Shown: one piece after another, positions 1,911 through 20,926 of the stretch
Numbering within the stretch: position 1 is the stretch's first letter
Layout of the letters: every line of letters begins with the position of its first letter
NCBI GenBank assembly: GCA_035606695.1
Contig: DATNEW010000001.1
Coordinates: forward strand, 62,001-126,000
Direction of reading: 5' to 3'
Length of the DNA stretch: 64,000 nucleotides
Source: Gemmatimonadaceae bacterium
GTDB lineage: Bacteria; Gemmatimonadota; Gemmatimonadetes; Gemmatimonadales; Gemmatimonadaceae
The notes under the pieces: generated by a model
Databases searched by the model: none
The model's input: only the letters and a program-made list of their open reading frames with translations
What the model was told of the DNA's origin: nothing
Translations under genes and position numbers: made by a program

Positions 1911-2921
1911 CAGCAGGTCACGCAGCGTCTCGCCGGCGCGCCGGCAGTCCTCGGCGCTCACGTCGAGGTGCGTGACGAGCCGCAGCCGCGTCGGCGACCA
2001 CTCGGCCACGAGAATGGTCTGCTCGCGCGCCGCCATGGCGATTTGTCCGGCGATGGGCGATGATAGATCTATCATTACAATATTGGTATCGGGCGCCACG
2101 ACGCTCGCGCCGCCCGCGCCGTCGATCAGGCTCGCGAGCAGCCGGGCATTCGCGTGGTCGTCGGCCAGGCGATCGAGATGGTGGTCCAGGCCATACAACA
2201 CCGCGGCGGCGAGAATGCCGGACTGGCGCATCGCACCGCCGAACAGTTTGCGCGCGGTCCATGCCTCTTCGATGTGCTCGCTACTGCCGGCCAGTGCCGC
2301 GCCGACCGGCGCCCCCAGGCCCTTGGAGAACGCGACCATCACCGTATCGGCATACGATGCGATCTCGTCGAGCGGAACGCCTGACGCGACGCTCGCATTC
2401 CACAGGCGCGCGCCGTCCATGTGGACCGGCACATCGTGCTCGTCCGCGACGTCTCGAATGGCGCGCAGTTCATCGATCGGCGTAATCACACCGCCCGCGC
2501 CGTTGTGCGTGTTCTCGACGCACACGAGACTCGCCGCCGGGTAGTAGCGCGATTGTGGCCGAAACGCGGCGCGCAAATCGTCGGCGCTCATCGCGAGCCC
2601 GGAGGGGACCACGGTCAACACCTGGGCGCCGCTCAGCACCGCGGTCGCCGCGATCTCGCTATGGACGATGTGTGCATCGACGTCGAGGAGCACTTCGGTG
2701 CCGCGATCCGCGTGCACCCAGATGCCGGCCTGATTGGCCATGACACCGCTGGGAAAGAACAACGCGGCTTCCTTGCCGAGCATCGTGGCGACGCGCTCTT
2801 CGAGGCGGCGCGTGGTGGGATCGCCGTCGCGCTCGTCATCGCCCACTTCCGCGGCGGCCATGGCGGCGCGCATGCCGGGCGTCGGCTTCGTGACAGTATC
2901 TGATCGAAGGTCGATTGGCAT
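1899..2921 (-). CDS. Low-specificity L-threonine aldolase
   Basis: A 340-residue fold-type I PLP enzyme cleaving threonine (and allo-threonine) to glycine and acetaldehyde. The start chosen, MPIDLRSDTVTKPT, is the standard family N-terminus; a longer reading frame to 3110 runs through repetitive GC-rich DNA and is not believed. The PLP lysine is K200 in VAFSKGLGAPVG, and VHMDGARLWN (D169) binds the pyridine nitrogen. ENTHNGAGG is the conserved phosphate region. It lies 135 bp upstream of threonine ammonia-lyase on the same strand. The stop codon is formed by a 9-bp tandem repeat. Confidence 0.9.
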   Translation of the reverse strand: MPIDLRSDTVTKPTPGMRAAMAAAEVGDDERDGDPTTRRLEERVATMLGKEAALFFPSGVMANQAGIWVHADRGTEVLLDVDAHIVHSEIAATAVLSGAQVLTVVPSGLAMSADDLRAAFRPQSRYYPAASLVCVENTHNGAGGVITPIDELRAIRDVADEHDVPVHMDGARLWNASVASGVPLDEIASYADTVMVAFSKGLGAPVGAALAGSSEHIEEAWTARKLFGGAMRQSGILAAAVLYGLDHHLDRLADDHANARLLASLIDGAGGASVVAPDTNIVMIDLSSPIAGQIAMAAREQTILVAEWSPTRLRLVTHLDVSAEDCRRAGETLRDLLERA

Positions 2922-2937
2922 GCGGAGAAGATAGTTG

Positions 2938-3147
2938 TGTTGTGCCCGCGCGCCGCGGGCGCGCGAGGGAATGGCGCGGCTGACGCCGCAGGGGATGGCG
3001 CGCGCGGTGCGCGCAGGGGAAGCGGGCCTCGTCGTTGCCTGCGACCGAAGGTCGCGCCATGCCCGCCGAACGCAGTGAGGCCACTCCCGCGCGGCCGCAG
3101 GCCGCGCCACACCCTCGCGCGCCTACGGCGCGCGGCCTCAAGCGGCC
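2938..3147. repeat. Cluster of GC-rich mini-hairpins
   Basis: This intergenic stretch is a string of short GC palindromes, each closed by a 3-nt core and separated by 5-9 nt purine- or pyrimidine-biased linkers. Examples: GCGCGCCGCGGGCGCGC, GCGACCGAAGGTCGC, GCGGCCGCAGGCCGC, CGCGCGCCTACGGCGCGCG. A similar but shorter cluster is at 55391-55460. Open frames crossing it are read-through artefacts of the periodic GC sequence. Confidence 0.65.
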
Positions 3148-3987
3148 TCAGTCTGTCAGTACCTCTCTCTGCACCTTCCGAATTCGCCGCAGCTCCGCGA
3201 CCTGCCCCACCTCGCCGCCGAGAATGAAGATCATCGCGGCGTAGTAGAACCACACGACGACGATGACGATTCCCGTCAGCGTGCCGGTGTACAGCGACGC
3301 CGGATTGAACGTCTGCGTGTAGTAGGCGAAGATGGTTCGCGCTCCCTCGAACGCGATGCTCGTGAAGAGCGACGCGATCCACGCCGTCTGCGTGCGCACG
3401 CGGCGAATGGGCAGATACTTGTACAGCGCGAAGAACATCAGCGCGAGAAAGACGAAGGCGATCGATCGAACGATCCACGCCTCGAGACCGCCCATCACGT
3501 CCTTCCGCAGACCCATCTGCTCGAGGACACCGACGCCGCTGTGGGTGGCCAGCGTGGCGTAGGTGTTGACCGTCACGCTCGCGACGAACAACAGCGTGGA
3601 GACCACGGTGATCTTCACGTCGAAGATTTTGCCCGCGATGATGCCGCGCTCGCTCTCGATGTCGAACACGCTCGCGAGCACCGTGCGCAGCGATCCGAAC
3701 AGACGCGTCGAGAACCACACGAAGCCGATCGAGCTGTAGATCGTGATCGAACCGCGCGTCCGGAACAGCTCGGCGAGCAGCGTATCGATCGCCGAGTTGC
3801 CTTCGGCGTGGGAGGGCAGCATGCGGTCGATGTACTCGCGCACCGTCGCGGCGGAATGGGCCGCCGAACCGAGCTGCGCGTCGTGCACGAATAACGGCAG
3901 GATGTACGTCAGTCCGTTCACCAGCAGCAGGATGAACGGAACGGCCGCCAGGATCAGGTTGAAGGCGATCCCGCCGGCCAGAAACAA
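3148..3987 (-). CDS. YihY/BrkB-family integral membrane protein
   Basis: Inner-membrane protein of the YihY/virulence factor BrkB (formerly 'ribonuclease BN') family, function unsettled. Visible membrane segments include FLAGGIAFNLILAAVPFILLLVNG, VSTLLFVASVTVNTYATL, IAFVFLALMFFALYKYLP and LTGIVIVVVWFYYAAMIFILGG, about six in total. The coordinates start at a TTG (3985-3987), the only ordinary start codon, but the frame stays open upstream and encodes RDYAKRVWDNSGEDNVL, which resembles the conserved family N-terminus. The only other start-like codon before the in-frame TGA of the preceding gene is ATC at 4110, preceded by GAGGG 7 nt away. Starting there gives 320 residues. Confidence 0.85.
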   Translation of the reverse strand: MFLAGGIAFNLILAAVPFILLLVNGLTYILPLFVHDAQLGSAAHSAATVREYIDRMLPSHAEGNSAIDTLLAELFRTRGSITIYSSIGFVWFSTRLFGSLRTVLASVFDIESERGIIAGKIFDVKITVVSTLLFVASVTVNTYATLATHSGVGVLEQMGLRKDVMGGLEAWIVRSIAFVFLALMFFALYKYLPIRRVRTQTAWIASLFTSIAFEGARTIFAYYTQTFNPASLYTGTLTGIVIVVVWFYYAAMIFILGGEVGQVAELRRIRKVQREVLTD

Positions 3988-15693: not shown

Positions 15694-17442
15694 CTACTGC
15701 GAATACGTCCGCGCGAGATGGTCGGCAATCGAGCCGATCATCGCGTCGCGGCTGCGCTTCGCCTCGAAGGTATGGTTTGCGTCGTCGATGCGCCAAAGCG
15801 AAAGCATCCCGCGCCGGGTCAGAGACCGCACGGCACGGCTGGCGTTGATCATGAGCAGATCGTAGCCAGGGTCGAACCGAGAGAACACGAACGTGACGCG
15901 ACGCCGCGCCGCCGCAATGCGCCGGAGATCGGCATCGAGGTTGTCGCCACCGGACGCGATCGACCGTCCATGCAGCGCTTCGCGCACGCCGGCCACCTTG
16001 TTGCGTGCGATGTCTCGAAAGCGCAGCAGGACGTTTCGCGCGATCGACGTCATGCTGACGTCGTCACGAAAGAGCTTTGCCCACCCCGACACGCTGCGCA
16101 TCGAGCGCATGTATCGCTGCCATTCCTCGTAATGATTCGACGCCGGTTGATCGAGCGACATTCCGGGTTTGTAGTAGAACGTCAGGGGATTGATCAATAC
16201 GCATTCCGTGATCGCGGAATCGTCGAGATCGAGCGCCGCGTGGAACGACGCGTGTGCACCGGAGCAGAGGCCCATCAGCACGAATCGCTCTGACGCGCGT
16301 CGCTGTCGCAGCGCCGCCACCGCGCTCGCGATGACCGCGCTCGCACTCGGGACATACGGCCGGTTCTCTGCCTCGGCGTCCGGCGCAGGATTGTCACCGA
16401 GCCCGGGCAGGTCGAGGCGCAGCGAGCGCAAGCCGGCGGCGGCCAATGCGCGCGCCGCCATGACGTACAAGCGGTTGGGGCCGACGTGATGCGTCGCCCC
16501 TGCGTTCGACAGCAACACCACCGGGCCACGCGCGGCATTAACCGGCTCGCACAGGATGCCGAAGAAGCCGTGTTCGCCGCGAACGTGAACGATCGTTTCG
16601 CGAACGCCGTTCGCCGTGAATGACTGACGTAGAGAGGGCGGGCGCCTGAGCGTGATCTCGCCGCCCGCGCGAGCGGCGAGCCAGCCGACGATCTCGGCGA
16701 TCGCGCGCTCGGGGACCACGGTGTTGTGCGGAACGTCCACCATTCCCGCAAATCCGGGGAGCGATCGCTGCTCGACGCGGCGGCCGGCCGCGGACCAGGC
16801 GGTGTACAGCGCGCCGTCGTCGGGCAGATCGTCGCGCGGTGAGATAAAAATTTGTCTCGCGCTCGGCGGCGCCGCGGACAGGTCGAGGCACGCGAGCCCG
16901 GCCTGCGTGTCTTTAGAGAATGTGAATCCTCCGGGCTCGATGGCGCCGTCCGCCGAACCGGCGTTGCGGTTGCCGCCGGTCATGGCGAGCGCCTTGAGCT
17001 CGCGCACGTACCCGCGGCCCCGCACACACGGCGCCCAGAGTACGAGCGCGTCCAGTGCTTCGTGCTCCGACACTAACGCCGCGAGAGTCGCCCCCATGCG
17101 AAGTCCCACGGCCGCGATCCGCGAGCACCCGGACGCCCGCTTCGCCTCGCGAAACGCTTCGACGACTGACGACCGCCACGCCCCCATGCGATCGGCGTCC
17201 TCGTCACTCCCCGCCGAGTCGCCGCAACCGTCATAGTCGAAACGAAAGGCAGCCACGCCCGCCAGCGCGAGCTCGTCGGCCAACCGCCGGAGCGAGCGAT
17301 GCGCGTTGATGTACTCGTGGCCCACCGGAGGACAGATCACGACGACGAGATCGCGCGCCTCGTTCTTCGGTGCATGCAGCCACCCGAACAGCGCGCGCGA
17401 TTCATTCCCGAAATAGAATGGCGTCCGCTCGACGGCGGTCAC
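15694..17442 (-). CDS. Two-domain alpha/beta hydrolase with non-canonical nucleophiles
   Basis: A 582-residue fusion of two alpha/beta hydrolases, starting at a GTG whose bases overlap the stop of the GH2 gene (GTGA). Domain 1 (~8-258) has CPPVGHEYINAHRSLRRLADELALAG and FRFDYDGCGDSAG, but the elbow is GLRMG (113-117), with Arg at the nucleophile position. Domain 2 (~278-580) has LSNAGATHHVGPNRLY and RLDLPGLGD, and an elbow GLCSG (391-395) with Cys393, plus candidate D524 (RFDPGYD) and H557 (DANHTF). Both resemble exosortase-A-associated hydrolases. Last gene of the aminoacyl-carrier-protein operon; possibly a thioesterase or acyltransferase (inference). Confidence 0.8.
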   Translation of the reverse strand: MTAVERTPFYFGNESRALFGWLHAPKNEARDLVVVICPPVGHEYINAHRSLRRLADELALAGVAAFRFDYDGCGDSAGSDEDADRMGAWRSSVVEAFREAKRASGCSRIAAVGLRMGATLAALVSEHEALDALVLWAPCVRGRGYVRELKALAMTGGNRNAGSADGAIEPGGFTFSKDTQAGLACLDLSAAPPSARQIFISPRDDLPDDGALYTAWSAAGRRVEQRSLPGFAGMVDVPHNTVVPERAIAEIVGWLAARAGGEITLRRPPSLRQSFTANGVRETIVHVRGEHGFFGILCEPVNAARGPVVLLSNAGATHHVGPNRLYVMAARALAAAGLRSLRLDLPGLGDNPAPDAEAENRPYVPSASAVIASAVAALRQRRASERFVLMGLCSGAHASFHAALDLDDSAITECVLINPLTFYYKPGMSLDQPASNHYEEWQRYMRSMRSVSGWAKLFRDDVSMTSIARNVLLRFRDIARNKVAGVREALHGRSIASGGDNLDADLRRIAAARRRVTFVFSRFDPGYDLLMINASRAVRSLTRRGMLSLWRIDDANHTFEAKRSRDAMIGSIADHLARTYSQ

Positions 17443-19988
17443 GCGCGAATCTCCAGACGAGCCGGCGTGCGAAGGTTCAAGGCTTCGACGTACCCGCGCG
17501 GTGTTTCGGCGTCCGACGTCCGGCGCAACTGCACGCGATGCTCGCGCCCCGGCGCGAGATGAAAATAGTTGTCGTCCGGCGCGAACCCGCGGACGTCGAA
17601 TCGCACGCCGTAGAGGAAGCGATCGCTCTCGAGTCTCACGCTCCATGTGTCGTCGCCCGCGCGGGTCGTCTCGACGGCGAGAGTCGCATCCGTGGGTCGC
17701 ACGTCGAGCGCCGTCGCGAAGTGCAGCGCGTTCGCGGCGAACGATCCGTCGACATTGCGCAAGGCGGCGATCGCGACGTCGAACGCCGGCGGTCCGAAGC
17801 GATACGCATACGCCGTATCGTGGAATCCGCCAAGGACTTCTTCGGCGTCGAACGACGCGGTCGTGCTCGCCGCGACCTCGCATTCCAGCGAACGCTCGGC
17901 CACAATCGTCGCGCCATCGCGAACGAGCATCAGCGACACGGCGCCGTTCCACGCGTCACGGCGCTCGTTGACGACGTGCAGGCGAATGCCGTTGAGCCCT
18001 TCGTCCGTGATCGCGATTGCGACCGGCTGCCACGCGCGGCGCAAGTAGTAGTAGCAAGCCTTGGGAACGCCGCGGCTGTCGGTGACTCCCCACCCCGCGC
18101 CCGGCCAGAGATCTCGATAAAACCACACCAACGCGCCTCGACAACGACTTTCTGCGCGACGCCACTCCGCGAAGACACGCGACATTGCTTCGCCCGTCGC
18201 CACGCGTGCGAGATCGAGATATCGGCGCGTGTCGCAGTAGCGGAGGCGCTCAACGTCCGCGCCAAACAACGCGCGCATGCAATGATCGCGAACGTCCTCG
18301 AAATCCCAACCGGCGCCCGTGTCGCGCGGCGTCCGCTTCTTCCACCTCGGATCGTGAATCGCGGGAGGATCGCCGCGCATGATCGTGTCAACCACCTCGG
18401 GCTCCGGAACGTTCGCGAAGCCCAGGCATTCGGGCGTGAACTTTACGTCGGCGCCGCGAACATCGGCGAACGGACGGAGATACGCGCCGATCCCGTAATA
18501 GTGCGTGAGTCCCGAGCGCGTATGAAACGGAAGCGTGCCACCCGACGGCGTCGACGGAACATACGGCACGCCGGGATGGAGTTCGTTGCACAACGACGGC
18601 AAGACTTCCGCGAACAGTGTATTTCGCCACGCGTCGCGCGGCATGCCCAGCATCGCCGCCTGCTGTTCGACTTCACTGTTACCGCAATACGTCACCACGC
18701 ACGGATGTGCGGCTAACCGGCGCAGCTGCTGCGCCGCTTCACGCCGGACGCTCTCGACGAATTGGGGATCGTCGCCGGGATAATCCATGTTCGCGAACAT
18801 GAAGTCCTGCCACACCAGAATTCCAAGCTCGTCGCACAGTCGGTAGAATGCGTCCGACTCGTACACCATCGTCCCGCCGACGCGCACCATGTTCGCGCCG
18901 CCGTCGCGCAGCGTGTGCAGCGCGCCGCGAAGCGCGGCCTCGTCGACCGACAGGCCAACGACGTCCGTTGTCGTCCAGCAGGCCCCGCGGCAGAACACCG
19001 GCCGGCCATTGACGCAGAGTCCGAATTCGTCGTCGTCGCGCACCGCTGCGACATCGCGAAAGCCAATGGCACCGAGTGAAATCTCGGTTGTCTCGCCTGA
19101 CGCCGAGATGCGGAGCGCGCACGAATACAGCTTCGGCTCGCCATGCGTGTGCGGCCACCAGCGCACGACATTGGCGATCGACGCAACCCCACTCAGTCGC
19201 GCCGAGCGCTCGCCGTCGTCCACGTCCTCTTCGTGCGTGACATTCAACGAATGCGCCGTTTCACCGACCACGAGCTCGGCGCTCATGTGTTCGTCGGCGG
19301 CGTTGGTAAGCGCTGAGAATTCCACGACGCCATTGTCGTTCTCGACCGACGAACGCAGCGCGACGTTCCACAGCGCGCCAACGCCCCGGGTTTCGAGCAC
19401 CACCGGCCGCCACGGACCGACCGGCGCCGCGGGGATCGTCCAACCGGGGATTCGGCCGAGCAGCGTCGTGCGAATCCACCGCAACTGTTGCTGCCGAACG
19501 AGCTTGGTCTTCCAACGAGGTCGCGGCCGACGACGAGCCAGCTCGCTGTTGAGTGACCGGCAACAGATCACGAGCTCGTTGCGATCGTGCAAGCTGTCGG
19601 TGACATCCACTTCGTGCGACTCGAACATGTTCGTCGAACGCACCAGCGGCGCACCGTTCAACCACACGTCGGCGAGCGTCGCCAACCCGTCGAAGCGAAG
19701 CACGGAGCGTGCGCCGTGGCGCTCGGCCGACGCCTCGAACGATGTGCGATACCACCAGTCGCTCGCGTCGAAGTCGTCTTCGTCGTCGAGATCCCAGCGA
19801 CCGGCGGCGGCGAGCGCCTGCGCCACTGTGCCGGGCACGCGAGCCGGAATCCAATCGAGCTTGTGCGCGTGCAGCTGTCCTGGCTCGGCAACGCCGTTCG
19901 GCGCGGTGGCAGCCAGGAACCAGTCGCTCGAGAGCGGCAGCGTCCGCGCCGCTACAAGCAGCGCGCCTTGAGGTGATTGATTCCGCAT
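17439..19988 (-). CDS. Glycoside hydrolase family 2 protein (beta-mannosidase-like)
   Basis: An 849-residue protein without a signal peptide. It shows the GH2 order: sugar-binding jelly roll (~20-190, VPGTVAQALAAAGRWD, DWWYRTSFEA, RFDGLATLADVWLNG), an immunoglobulin-like domain, a TIM barrel (FCRGACWTTTDVVG, RDGGANMVRVGGTMVYESDAFYRLCDELGILVWQDFMFANMDYP) and a C-terminal beta domain. The acid/base region is VVTYCGNSEVEQQ (GNNE in mannosidases, here GNSE). The probable nucleophile is the Glu in FTPECLGFANVPEPE. Likely cytoplasmic; overlaps the DUF1839 gene by 37 bp and the hydrolase by 4 bp. Its substrate may be a glycosylated intermediate of the operon's pathway. Confidence 0.85.
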   Translation of the reverse strand: MRNQSPQGALLVAARTLPLSSDWFLAATAPNGVAEPGQLHAHKLDWIPARVPGTVAQALAAAGRWDLDDEDDFDASDWWYRTSFEASAERHGARSVLRFDGLATLADVWLNGAPLVRSTNMFESHEVDVTDSLHDRNELVICCRSLNSELARRRPRPRWKTKLVRQQQLRWIRTTLLGRIPGWTIPAAPVGPWRPVVLETRGVGALWNVALRSSVENDNGVVEFSALTNAADEHMSAELVVGETAHSLNVTHEEDVDDGERSARLSGVASIANVVRWWPHTHGEPKLYSCALRISASGETTEISLGAIGFRDVAAVRDDDEFGLCVNGRPVFCRGACWTTTDVVGLSVDEAALRGALHTLRDGGANMVRVGGTMVYESDAFYRLCDELGILVWQDFMFANMDYPGDDPQFVESVRREAAQQLRRLAAHPCVVTYCGNSEVEQQAAMLGMPRDAWRNTLFAEVLPSLCNELHPGVPYVPSTPSGGTLPFHTRSGLTHYYGIGAYLRPFADVRGADVKFTPECLGFANVPEPEVVDTIMRGDPPAIHDPRWKKRTPRDTGAGWDFEDVRDHCMRALFGADVERLRYCDTRRYLDLARVATGEAMSRVFAEWRRAESRCRGALVWFYRDLWPGAGWGVTDSRGVPKACYYYLRRAWQPVAIAITDEGLNGIRLHVVNERRDAWNGAVSLMLVRDGATIVAERSLECEVAASTTASFDAEEVLGGFHDTAYAYRFGPPAFDVAIAALRNVDGSFAANALHFATALDVRPTDATLAVETTRAGDDTWSVRLESDRFLYGVRFDVRGFAPDDNYFHLAPGREHRVQLRRTSDAETPRGYVEALNLRTPARLEIRA

Positions 19989-20926
19989 TCCCAGCGGCTC
20001 GCCATCGAATCGAGCGGGGTCAGGTCGAGCGGCTTCTTGCGCACCATCGCGCGCGCCAGCTGGAACTGAAAGGTCTTGGCCGCTTCAGAGATCTCTCGAA
20101 ACGCGGTCGCGCTCTCGTCTAGGCCTTCTTCGCCGTGGTGCCCGAGCCAGCGCAAGTACCGGGCGGACAGCTCGTAACACGCGCCAAACTGCCGCAGTGT
20201 CGCGAACGAGTATTGATGGAACTTCTCGATGTTCTCGTCGAGCAGCCCGGAAAGGTCCCGCTGAAAGCGCTCCCGAAATTCCGCGAACGGATTCGCGTTC
20301 GGCACCATCTCGAGATGCTTGCGCAGCAATGCCAGCGACTTTTGAACGACCTGTGGGAACTCTCCTGGCGCGCGCCGCATCTTCACGAGCTCGCAATACG
20401 GCGGCAGCTCGGCGGCATCGCGCGGCTCGCGCAGGCGCAGCACGTCACAGAAGTCGTCGCCCTCGAGGCGATAAAATCCCTGGCCGTGGAAGTAGCCCAG
20501 CCGTTTCGCGTCGACGTCGATGTCGGTGATCGCGACGGTCGACTTCTGATGCGCGATCTTGTATGCGCTGCCGGCCGTATCGGGGAGATAGAACGAATCC
20601 AGCTCCACGAGCACCGGCCGTCCGCGGCTCACCTGCTCCTCGACGTGCGCCACCAACGGACGCCAGATCGCAAGCTCCTGCACGTCGAGGCCGTACAGCT
20701 CGTAGAGATCGAGGAGCGGAAACTTGAAGAAGGTCCACTGATCGCCCTCGAAGTCGATGGCGAAGGTGAACGGCAGCGCCGCGACGGGATCGTGCCCCAG
20801 GGCGTGCAGCAGCTCGATCCAGATGTCGACGTAGCAGTTCGTCTCCGCCCAGAGGCGGCTTTCGTCGCCGTGAATCTGATGGCGCTCGTACGTCGAAGGA
20901 TCGAGCGCGAGCACGCGCTGCATCAT
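19952..20926 (-). CDS. DUF1839 protein, possible cysteine aminoacyltransferase
   Basis: A 324-residue cytoplasmic protein of family DUF1839, often found with amino acid:carrier-protein ligases. Its ATG overlaps the ligase stop (ATGA). Residues 28-40 (ETNCYVDIWIELL) place C31 at the start of a helix. Then RGRPVLVELDSFYLP (D110) and YKIAHQKSTVAITDIDVDAKRLGYF (H126, D136 or D139) follow. This Cys...PVLVELD...H...D layout resembles the papain/C39-like N-terminal domain of BtrH, which moves an acyl group from a carrier protein in butirosin synthesis. The resemblance was judged by eye. A role as transferase from the aminoacylated carrier is therefore inference. Confidence 0.8.
   Translation of the reverse strand: MMQRVLALDPSTYERHQIHGDESRLWAETNCYVDIWIELLHALGHDPVAALPFTFAIDFEGDQWTFFKFPLLDLYELYGLDVQELAIWRPLVAHVEEQVSRGRPVLVELDSFYLPDTAGSAYKIAHQKSTVAITDIDVDAKRLGYFHGQGFYRLEGDDFCDVLRLREPRDAAELPPYCELVKMRRAPGEFPQVVQKSLALLRKHLEMVPNANPFAEFRERFQRDLSGLLDENIEKFHQYSFATLRQFGACYELSARYLRWLGHHGEEGLDESATAFREISEAAKTFQFQLARAMVRKKPLDLTPLDSMASRWECGINHLKARCL

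Follow-up and report, generated by a model that had tools for sequence, protein, structure and literature searches.

Results

The 64,000-nucleotide stretch analysed here (the window) comes from a Gemmatimonadaceae bacterium (assembly GCA_035606695.1, contig DATNEW010000001.1, positions 62,001 to 126,000) and contains a gene of the DUF1839 family, P0001 (19952..20926), whose 324-residue product was proposed in an earlier note to be a BtrH-like cysteine aminoacyltransferase. The open reading frame and the family named there were borne out; the strand, which the note did not give, is minus. The match to Pfam PF08893 (E=3e-124, 414.8 bits, gathering score 22.5) covers residues 10-320, and the protein consists of a papain-like domain (about residues 1-186) followed by a C-terminal helical bundle (190-323). 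Its start codon overlaps the stop codon of the preceding gene in an ATGA, read in the sequence at 20923..20926 on the minus strand, and the ATGA overlap described earlier is indeed present.

The preceding gene, P0002 (20923..21849, minus strand), encodes a seryl-tRNA-synthetase-like amino acid:carrier protein ligase, the carrier-loading enzyme that the note had supposed. It scored 447.6 bits against NF005479 (cut-off 357), its nearest PDB entries are 4h2w/3mey (4h2w with E=1.3e-80), and the match with the solved Bradyrhizobium ligase extends over residues 23-308. Residues C129, E157 and C275 were invariant wherever they were aligned among the relatives in this analysis. Upstream lie an acyl-CoA dehydrogenase-like flavoprotein, P0003 (21853..23049, minus strand; PF02771 E=2e-15, PF00441 E=5e-7), with an ATG start inside the listed open reading frame, and a carrier protein, P0004 (23080..23334, minus strand; NF005480, 112.6 bits, cut-off 72), whose phosphopantetheine site, Ser36 in a GLTS motif, was present in 75/75. 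Downstream of P0001 follow a beta-mannosidase-like GH2 glycosidase, P0005 (17439..19988, minus strand; PF22666 E=2e-27; 5n6u beta-mannosidase E=1e-59), and a double alpha/beta hydrolase (15694..17442, minus strand) that looks like a fusion of exosortase-A-associated hydrolases 2 and 1 (TIGR03101 E=2e-25, TIGR03100 E=8e-39, both matches under the curated cut-offs). Transcription of the minus strand runs from the carrier through the flavoprotein, ligase, DUF1839 and GH2 genes to the double hydrolase.

Near the C-terminus of P0003 the motif M-[VI]-x-N-[DE]-R proved invariant, with N388 and R390 in 82/82. It stands at the place where many acyl-CoA dehydrogenases have their catalytic glutamate, and P0003 may for this reason be a flavin oxygenase or another variant. 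The double alpha/beta hydrolase was found in most related clusters.

Gene content was counted at 78 loci over 6 kb. The carrier was found at 72 of them, the flavoprotein at 76, the ligase at 69 and GH2 at 73. At 68 of the 78 loci the ligase immediately preceded DUF1839, which itself immediately preceded GH2 at 61, and a DUF1839 start codon overlapped the ligase stop in the -1 register at 39 of the 76 loci with both genes. According to the record titles, the cluster occurs in at least eight phyla (Pseudomonadota, Acidobacteriota, Planctomycetota, Chloroflexota, Actinomycetota, Myxococcota, Gemmatimonadota and Abditibacteriota). Genes for exosortase A, sulfotransferases and glycosyltransferases were located close to some loci and an AcpS-type phosphopantetheinyl transferase near 15. 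DUF1839 and the ligase also occurred together across genomes. In a sample of 200 genomes from the phylum of the window, DUF1839 was present in seven and a ligase over the cut-off in six, all within those seven. Among 274 genomes of another class, DUF1839 was found in three, the ligase in four and both in three; next to the remaining ligase lies a carrier, but no DUF1839. The hypergeometric probabilities, uncorrected for kinship, were 8e-11 (200 genomes) and 1e-6 (274 genomes).

Conservation was determined on 87 DUF1839 proteins, namely that of the window, six from its phylum and 80 from GTDB genomes. The motifs singled out earlier, ETNCYVDIWIELL (with C31), RGRPVLVELDSFYLP and AHQKSTVAITDIDVD (with H126), are all present in the translation. 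C31 (codon 20834..20836, minus strand), the proposed nucleophile, was cysteine in 86/87, and H126 (20549..20551, minus strand) was histidine in 87/87. The aspartate given as D136/139 did not hold: position 136 is hydrophobic (Ile in the window protein), position 139 is variable, and of the aspartates present here (D135, D137 and D139) D137 alone is conserved (86/87). H147 (20486..20488, minus strand; 87/87), H19 (87/87) and position 129 (S129 in the window protein, 20540..20542, minus strand; Ser in 59 and Thr in 28 of the 87) had been missed. D110, in the motif ELDSFYL (20597..20599, minus strand), was Asp in 87/87, K128 and Y145 were invariant too, and position 130 was Thr or Ser in 86/87. 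Four plasmid copies (Azospirillum, Rhizobium, Caballeronia, Methylobacterium) retained every key residue. The sole exception at C31 (protein L007, L126:9225-10112) carries C31A, T130V and R245H and forms the longest branch of the tree. It is an orphan, the seventh DUF1839 genome of the 200-genome sample, which has no ligase; a marginal carrier-like stretch was seen nearby and no other cluster genes.

The AlphaFold2 model built from 55 sequences had a mean predicted local distance difference test score (pLDDT) of 94.6 and a predicted template modelling score (pTM) of 0.91. In this model C31 opens a long helix (31-42), as in papain. By its predicted fold, and by a cysteine that heads the central helix, P0001 is a member of the papain-like superfamily, in agreement with the fold expected in the earlier note. 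Foldseek against the PDB returned AziU3 (azinomycin; 7wuw, 8gs1), CtaG (closthioamide; 9qvj and others) and CcbD (of the lincosamide condensing enzymes CcbD/LmbD; 7yn1, 7yn2, 9dkr, 9dks), with E-values of 5e-8 to 4e-5 and the next match at 0.07. With VIA-align, Z was 19.6 for CcbD (286 residues, 3.5 A), 18.2 for AziU3 and 16.8 for CtaG, whereas the next matches, at 7.7 and lower, were peptidases aligned in the N-terminal half only. Since the alignment with CcbD, CtaG and AziU3 (Z 16-20) spans model residues 14-324, the relation covers both domains of the two-domain fold, the papain and the C-terminal helical one. At the sequence level neither phmmer with P0001 nor hmmsearch with the 55-sequence profile detected a relative among PDB sequences, and no BFVD viral structure matched at E<=0.001.

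Discussion

From the fold, the conserved residues, the gene cluster and the co-occurrence with the ligase, we infer that DUF1839 is probably a free-standing papain-fold acyltransferase working in the manner of CcbD, CtaG and BtrH. It would probably perform the missing step that follows carrier loading. In CcbD, proline is first moved from a carrier to the enzyme's own cysteine and then handed on to a thiooctose amino group, in a ping-pong mechanism with a Cys-His-Glu triad (PMC12945683). That an enzyme of shared fold transfers a carrier-bound amino acid to an amino sugar in this way supports the central idea of the earlier note. In the mechanism that we propose, the ligase would charge the phosphopantetheine of the small carrier with an amino acid (ligases assayed in other systems use Gly, Ala or Ser), and the aminoacyl group may undergo modification by the flavoprotein. 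It would then pass to C31 of DUF1839, forming a thioester. With S/T129 holding it, H147 would activate the cysteine and subsequently the amino group of the acceptor, and attack by the amine would yield an amide.

The acceptor would most likely be an amino sugar or a glycoconjugate. A sugar-type acceptor is favored because a glycosidase and polysaccharide genes surround DUF1839, and because a prediction to this effect was made in 2010 (PMC2922099). An attempt to read an amino sugar from the type of GH2 found no support, the nearest solved relatives being beta-mannosidases, and the amino sugar is for this reason a putative acceptor. A transferase that serves a different acceptor, be it a lipid, a hydroxyl group, a small amine or an amino acid bound to a second carrier, and whose product would not be an aminoacylated sugar, is a real although less probable alternative. 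It gains from a nearest solved GH2 that is a beta-mannosidase and not a glucosaminidase and from the other two near relatives, as neither CtaG nor AziU3 is known to use a sugar. CcbD, moreover, accepts many amines (PMC12945683). The presence of GH2 at 73 of the 78 loci, with the proposed nucleophile E520 kept in 70/70 (E439 in 68/73), and the exosortase A, sulfotransferase and glycosyltransferase genes near some loci speak against it and for a sugar-type acceptor.

Of the catalytic residues put forward previously, C31 as nucleophile stands, whereas H126 with D136/139 gives way to H147 with S/T129 as the most likely set. In the model, strands 128-137 and 142-147 form a hairpin in which, according to DSSP, H147 lies opposite residue 132. 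The papain histidine stands three residues ahead of the pairing partner of the asparagine, and this would place S129 in the canonical histidine slot. A fragment model of residues 1-149 (pLDDT 83.8) gave alignments with a modest Z of 4.5-6.9. In the VIA alignment its endpoint, residue 149, paired with CtaG residue 146 in seven of eight chains and with 148 in one; as 149 corresponds to CtaG 146, H147 falls on CtaG D144, provided that the last residues align without gaps. D144 is among the CtaG variants named in PDB titles (C11A, H128A, D144N). The same alignment paired 149 with residue 203 of the phytochelatin synthase Alr0975 and residue 143 of staphopain, where H147 would presumably fall on Asp201 and Asn141, respectively. 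The catalytic histidine is therefore most likely H147, in the third slot that is taken by Asp, Asn or Glu in the relatives, with S/T129 in the usual histidine slot. A triad C-(T/S)-H with histidine and Thr/Ser switched was also obtained for DUF1839 by published 3D modelling (PMC10318531). D137 was considered as the third triad member and rejected: it is conserved but, as judged from the model, lies where its strand meets the turn, and thus well away from the end of the hairpin that is close to C31.

H126 is unlikely to be the base. A triad of near canonical order built on H126, its third place taken by H147 or some other residue, seems to us rather improbable, although the invariance of H126 (87/87) would fit, as would the spacing of 16 residues between the LDxxYL Asp and the His in a BtrH homologue (L092), which equals that of D110 to H126. 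H126 lies two residues before strand 128-137, outside of it, while by the hairpin register the histidine slot falls to S129, H147 occupies the third slot and the published modelling arrived at C-(T/S)-H. A location of H126 in the acceptor site, just ahead of the strand, is more likely. This acceptor role is a guess based on its match with the place of M128/L129 in CcbD, if S129 corresponds to CcbD H131; M128, L129 and D114 bind the sugar in CcbD (PMC12945683). D110 may be the equivalent of CcbD D114.

A number of observations weigh against assigning DUF1839 to carrier-dependent, BtrH-like transferases. The predicted fold by itself does not separate a transferase from a hydrolase. P0001 scored 12.4 bits against PF14399 (BtrH_N; cut-off 29.7, E=0.19), and HHalign of DUF1839 with BtrH_N homologues from the searched genomes, using small profiles, gave no alignment. 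At nine loci no ligase was found beside DUF1839; eight of these genomes lack the ligase altogether and one has only a weak match to it, and at most of the nine no substitute loading enzyme was found. Finally, a DUF1839 gene with all key residues is located on a conjugative Rhizobium plasmid (L089:13962-14948) with no other cluster gene nearby. A hydrolase that removes misloaded aminoacyl groups in the manner of a type II thioesterase, or a peptidase, with water as acceptor in either case, nevertheless appears quite improbable, since, although papain-fold enzymes are mostly hydrolases and a 2023 survey in the Journal of Biological Chemistry counts DUF1839 among papain-like proteinases (PMC10318531), the three near relatives, matched in the C-terminal helical domain too, include amide-forming transferases, peptidases match in the N-terminal half with Z of 7.7 or below, and DUF1839 occurs nearly always within the cluster, as an optional proofreader usually would not.

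As to the loci without ligase, C31, H126, S/T129 and H147 were kept in all nine clusters. In the tree the 10 ligase-less rows require six changes, and the ligase was therefore repeatedly lost or replaced. In one case (L050:5904-7442), the carrier is immediately preceded by a stand-alone amino-acid adenylation domain (TIGR01733, 360.9 bits, cut-off 317.4), in a locus and a genome without ligase. This suggests that DUF1839 depends on an aminoacylated carrier rather than on the ligase itself. A replacement loader shared by the nine loci was looked for and discarded, the L050 domain having matched only L030 and L083, where the ligase is present, and L049, on the opposite strand. Downstream of two ligase-less clusters an FkbH-type protein is encoded (L048:15847-17493, TIGR01686; L056:15440-17068, recognized by similarity to that of L048 only). 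L048 also carries exosortase A at 1987-3432.

DUF1839 shares with CcbD/LmbD the whole-length fold, a cysteine nucleophile, a separately charged carrier protein and an aminoacyl donor, but with 11% identity and a probable Cys-(S/T)-His instead of Cys-His-Glu. The donor is loaded by a nonribosomal peptide synthetase (NRPS) adenylation domain for CcbD and usually by the tRNA-synthetase-like ligase for DUF1839. CtaG and AziU3 share the whole-length fold as well, at 9-16% identity, but belong to other pathways with other products. For BtrH, the butirosin acyltransferase of PF14399, we expect the same superfamily and the same logic of transfer from an acyl carrier protein to an aminoglycoside. An LDxxYL-like motif around D110 recurs in similar form in BtrH_N homologues, whereas DUF1839 stays under the Pfam cut-off, without a profile match. 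The relation to BtrH_N is one that is visible in structure alone and invisible to sequence profiles; a BtrH structure was absent from the structural matches. Of the proposal of a BtrH-like transferase, the fold, the cysteine nucleophile, the carrier context and a mechanism of the BtrH/CcbD type were thus supported, while membership of BtrH_N by sequence was not. Neither outcome that the earlier note named as refuting it, a fold unrelated to papain/C39 or a lack of conservation of C31 or H126 in the family, was observed. Four BtrH_N homologues from the phylum of the window (L102, L103, L104 and L105) seem to lack the catalytic cysteine.

The function proposed for this uncharacterised family is concrete, as the earlier note had it, but not wholly new. 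In 2010 an Atu2574-type reading frame beside an amino acid:carrier protein ligase was predicted to be a ligase that forms an amide with an amino sugar of the cell surface (PMC2922099). Its gene neighbourhood is that of DUF1839, of which Atu2574 would on these grounds be a member; that prediction came without fold, active site or mechanism. In 2023 DUF1839 was placed in the papain-like superfamily, and a cell-wall, acyl-CoA-dependent role was guessed (PMC10318531). In the part of the literature that we searched, where a single paper names DUF1839, there was no whole-length match to CcbD, CtaG or AziU3, no co-occurrence with the ligase, no substitution by an adenylation domain and no joining of the 2010 and 2023 predictions. 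In Bradyrhizobium, both the gene of the solved ligase and the adjacent acyl-CoA dehydrogenase gene (bll0957, bll0958) are listed as changed in a phaR mutant at low oxygen (PMC10888616), which hints at the conditions under which the pathway operates.

In conclusion, our data supply a probable next enzyme of the pathway, its likely nucleophile and base, and in CcbD a known mechanism against which it can be tested. More tentatively, and with somewhat less than even confidence, we envisage a widespread small pathway in which a synthetase-derived ligase loads a free carrier and a papain-fold transferase, its triad swapped to Cys-(Ser/Thr)-His, aminoacylates a sugar. Aminoacylated glycoconjugates would thereby arise in no fewer than eight phyla, and an NRPS adenylation domain could replace the loader while the transferase is retained. 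If true, this would be a papain-fold transferase operating with a rearranged triad, and a widespread aminoacyl modification that has gone unnoticed.

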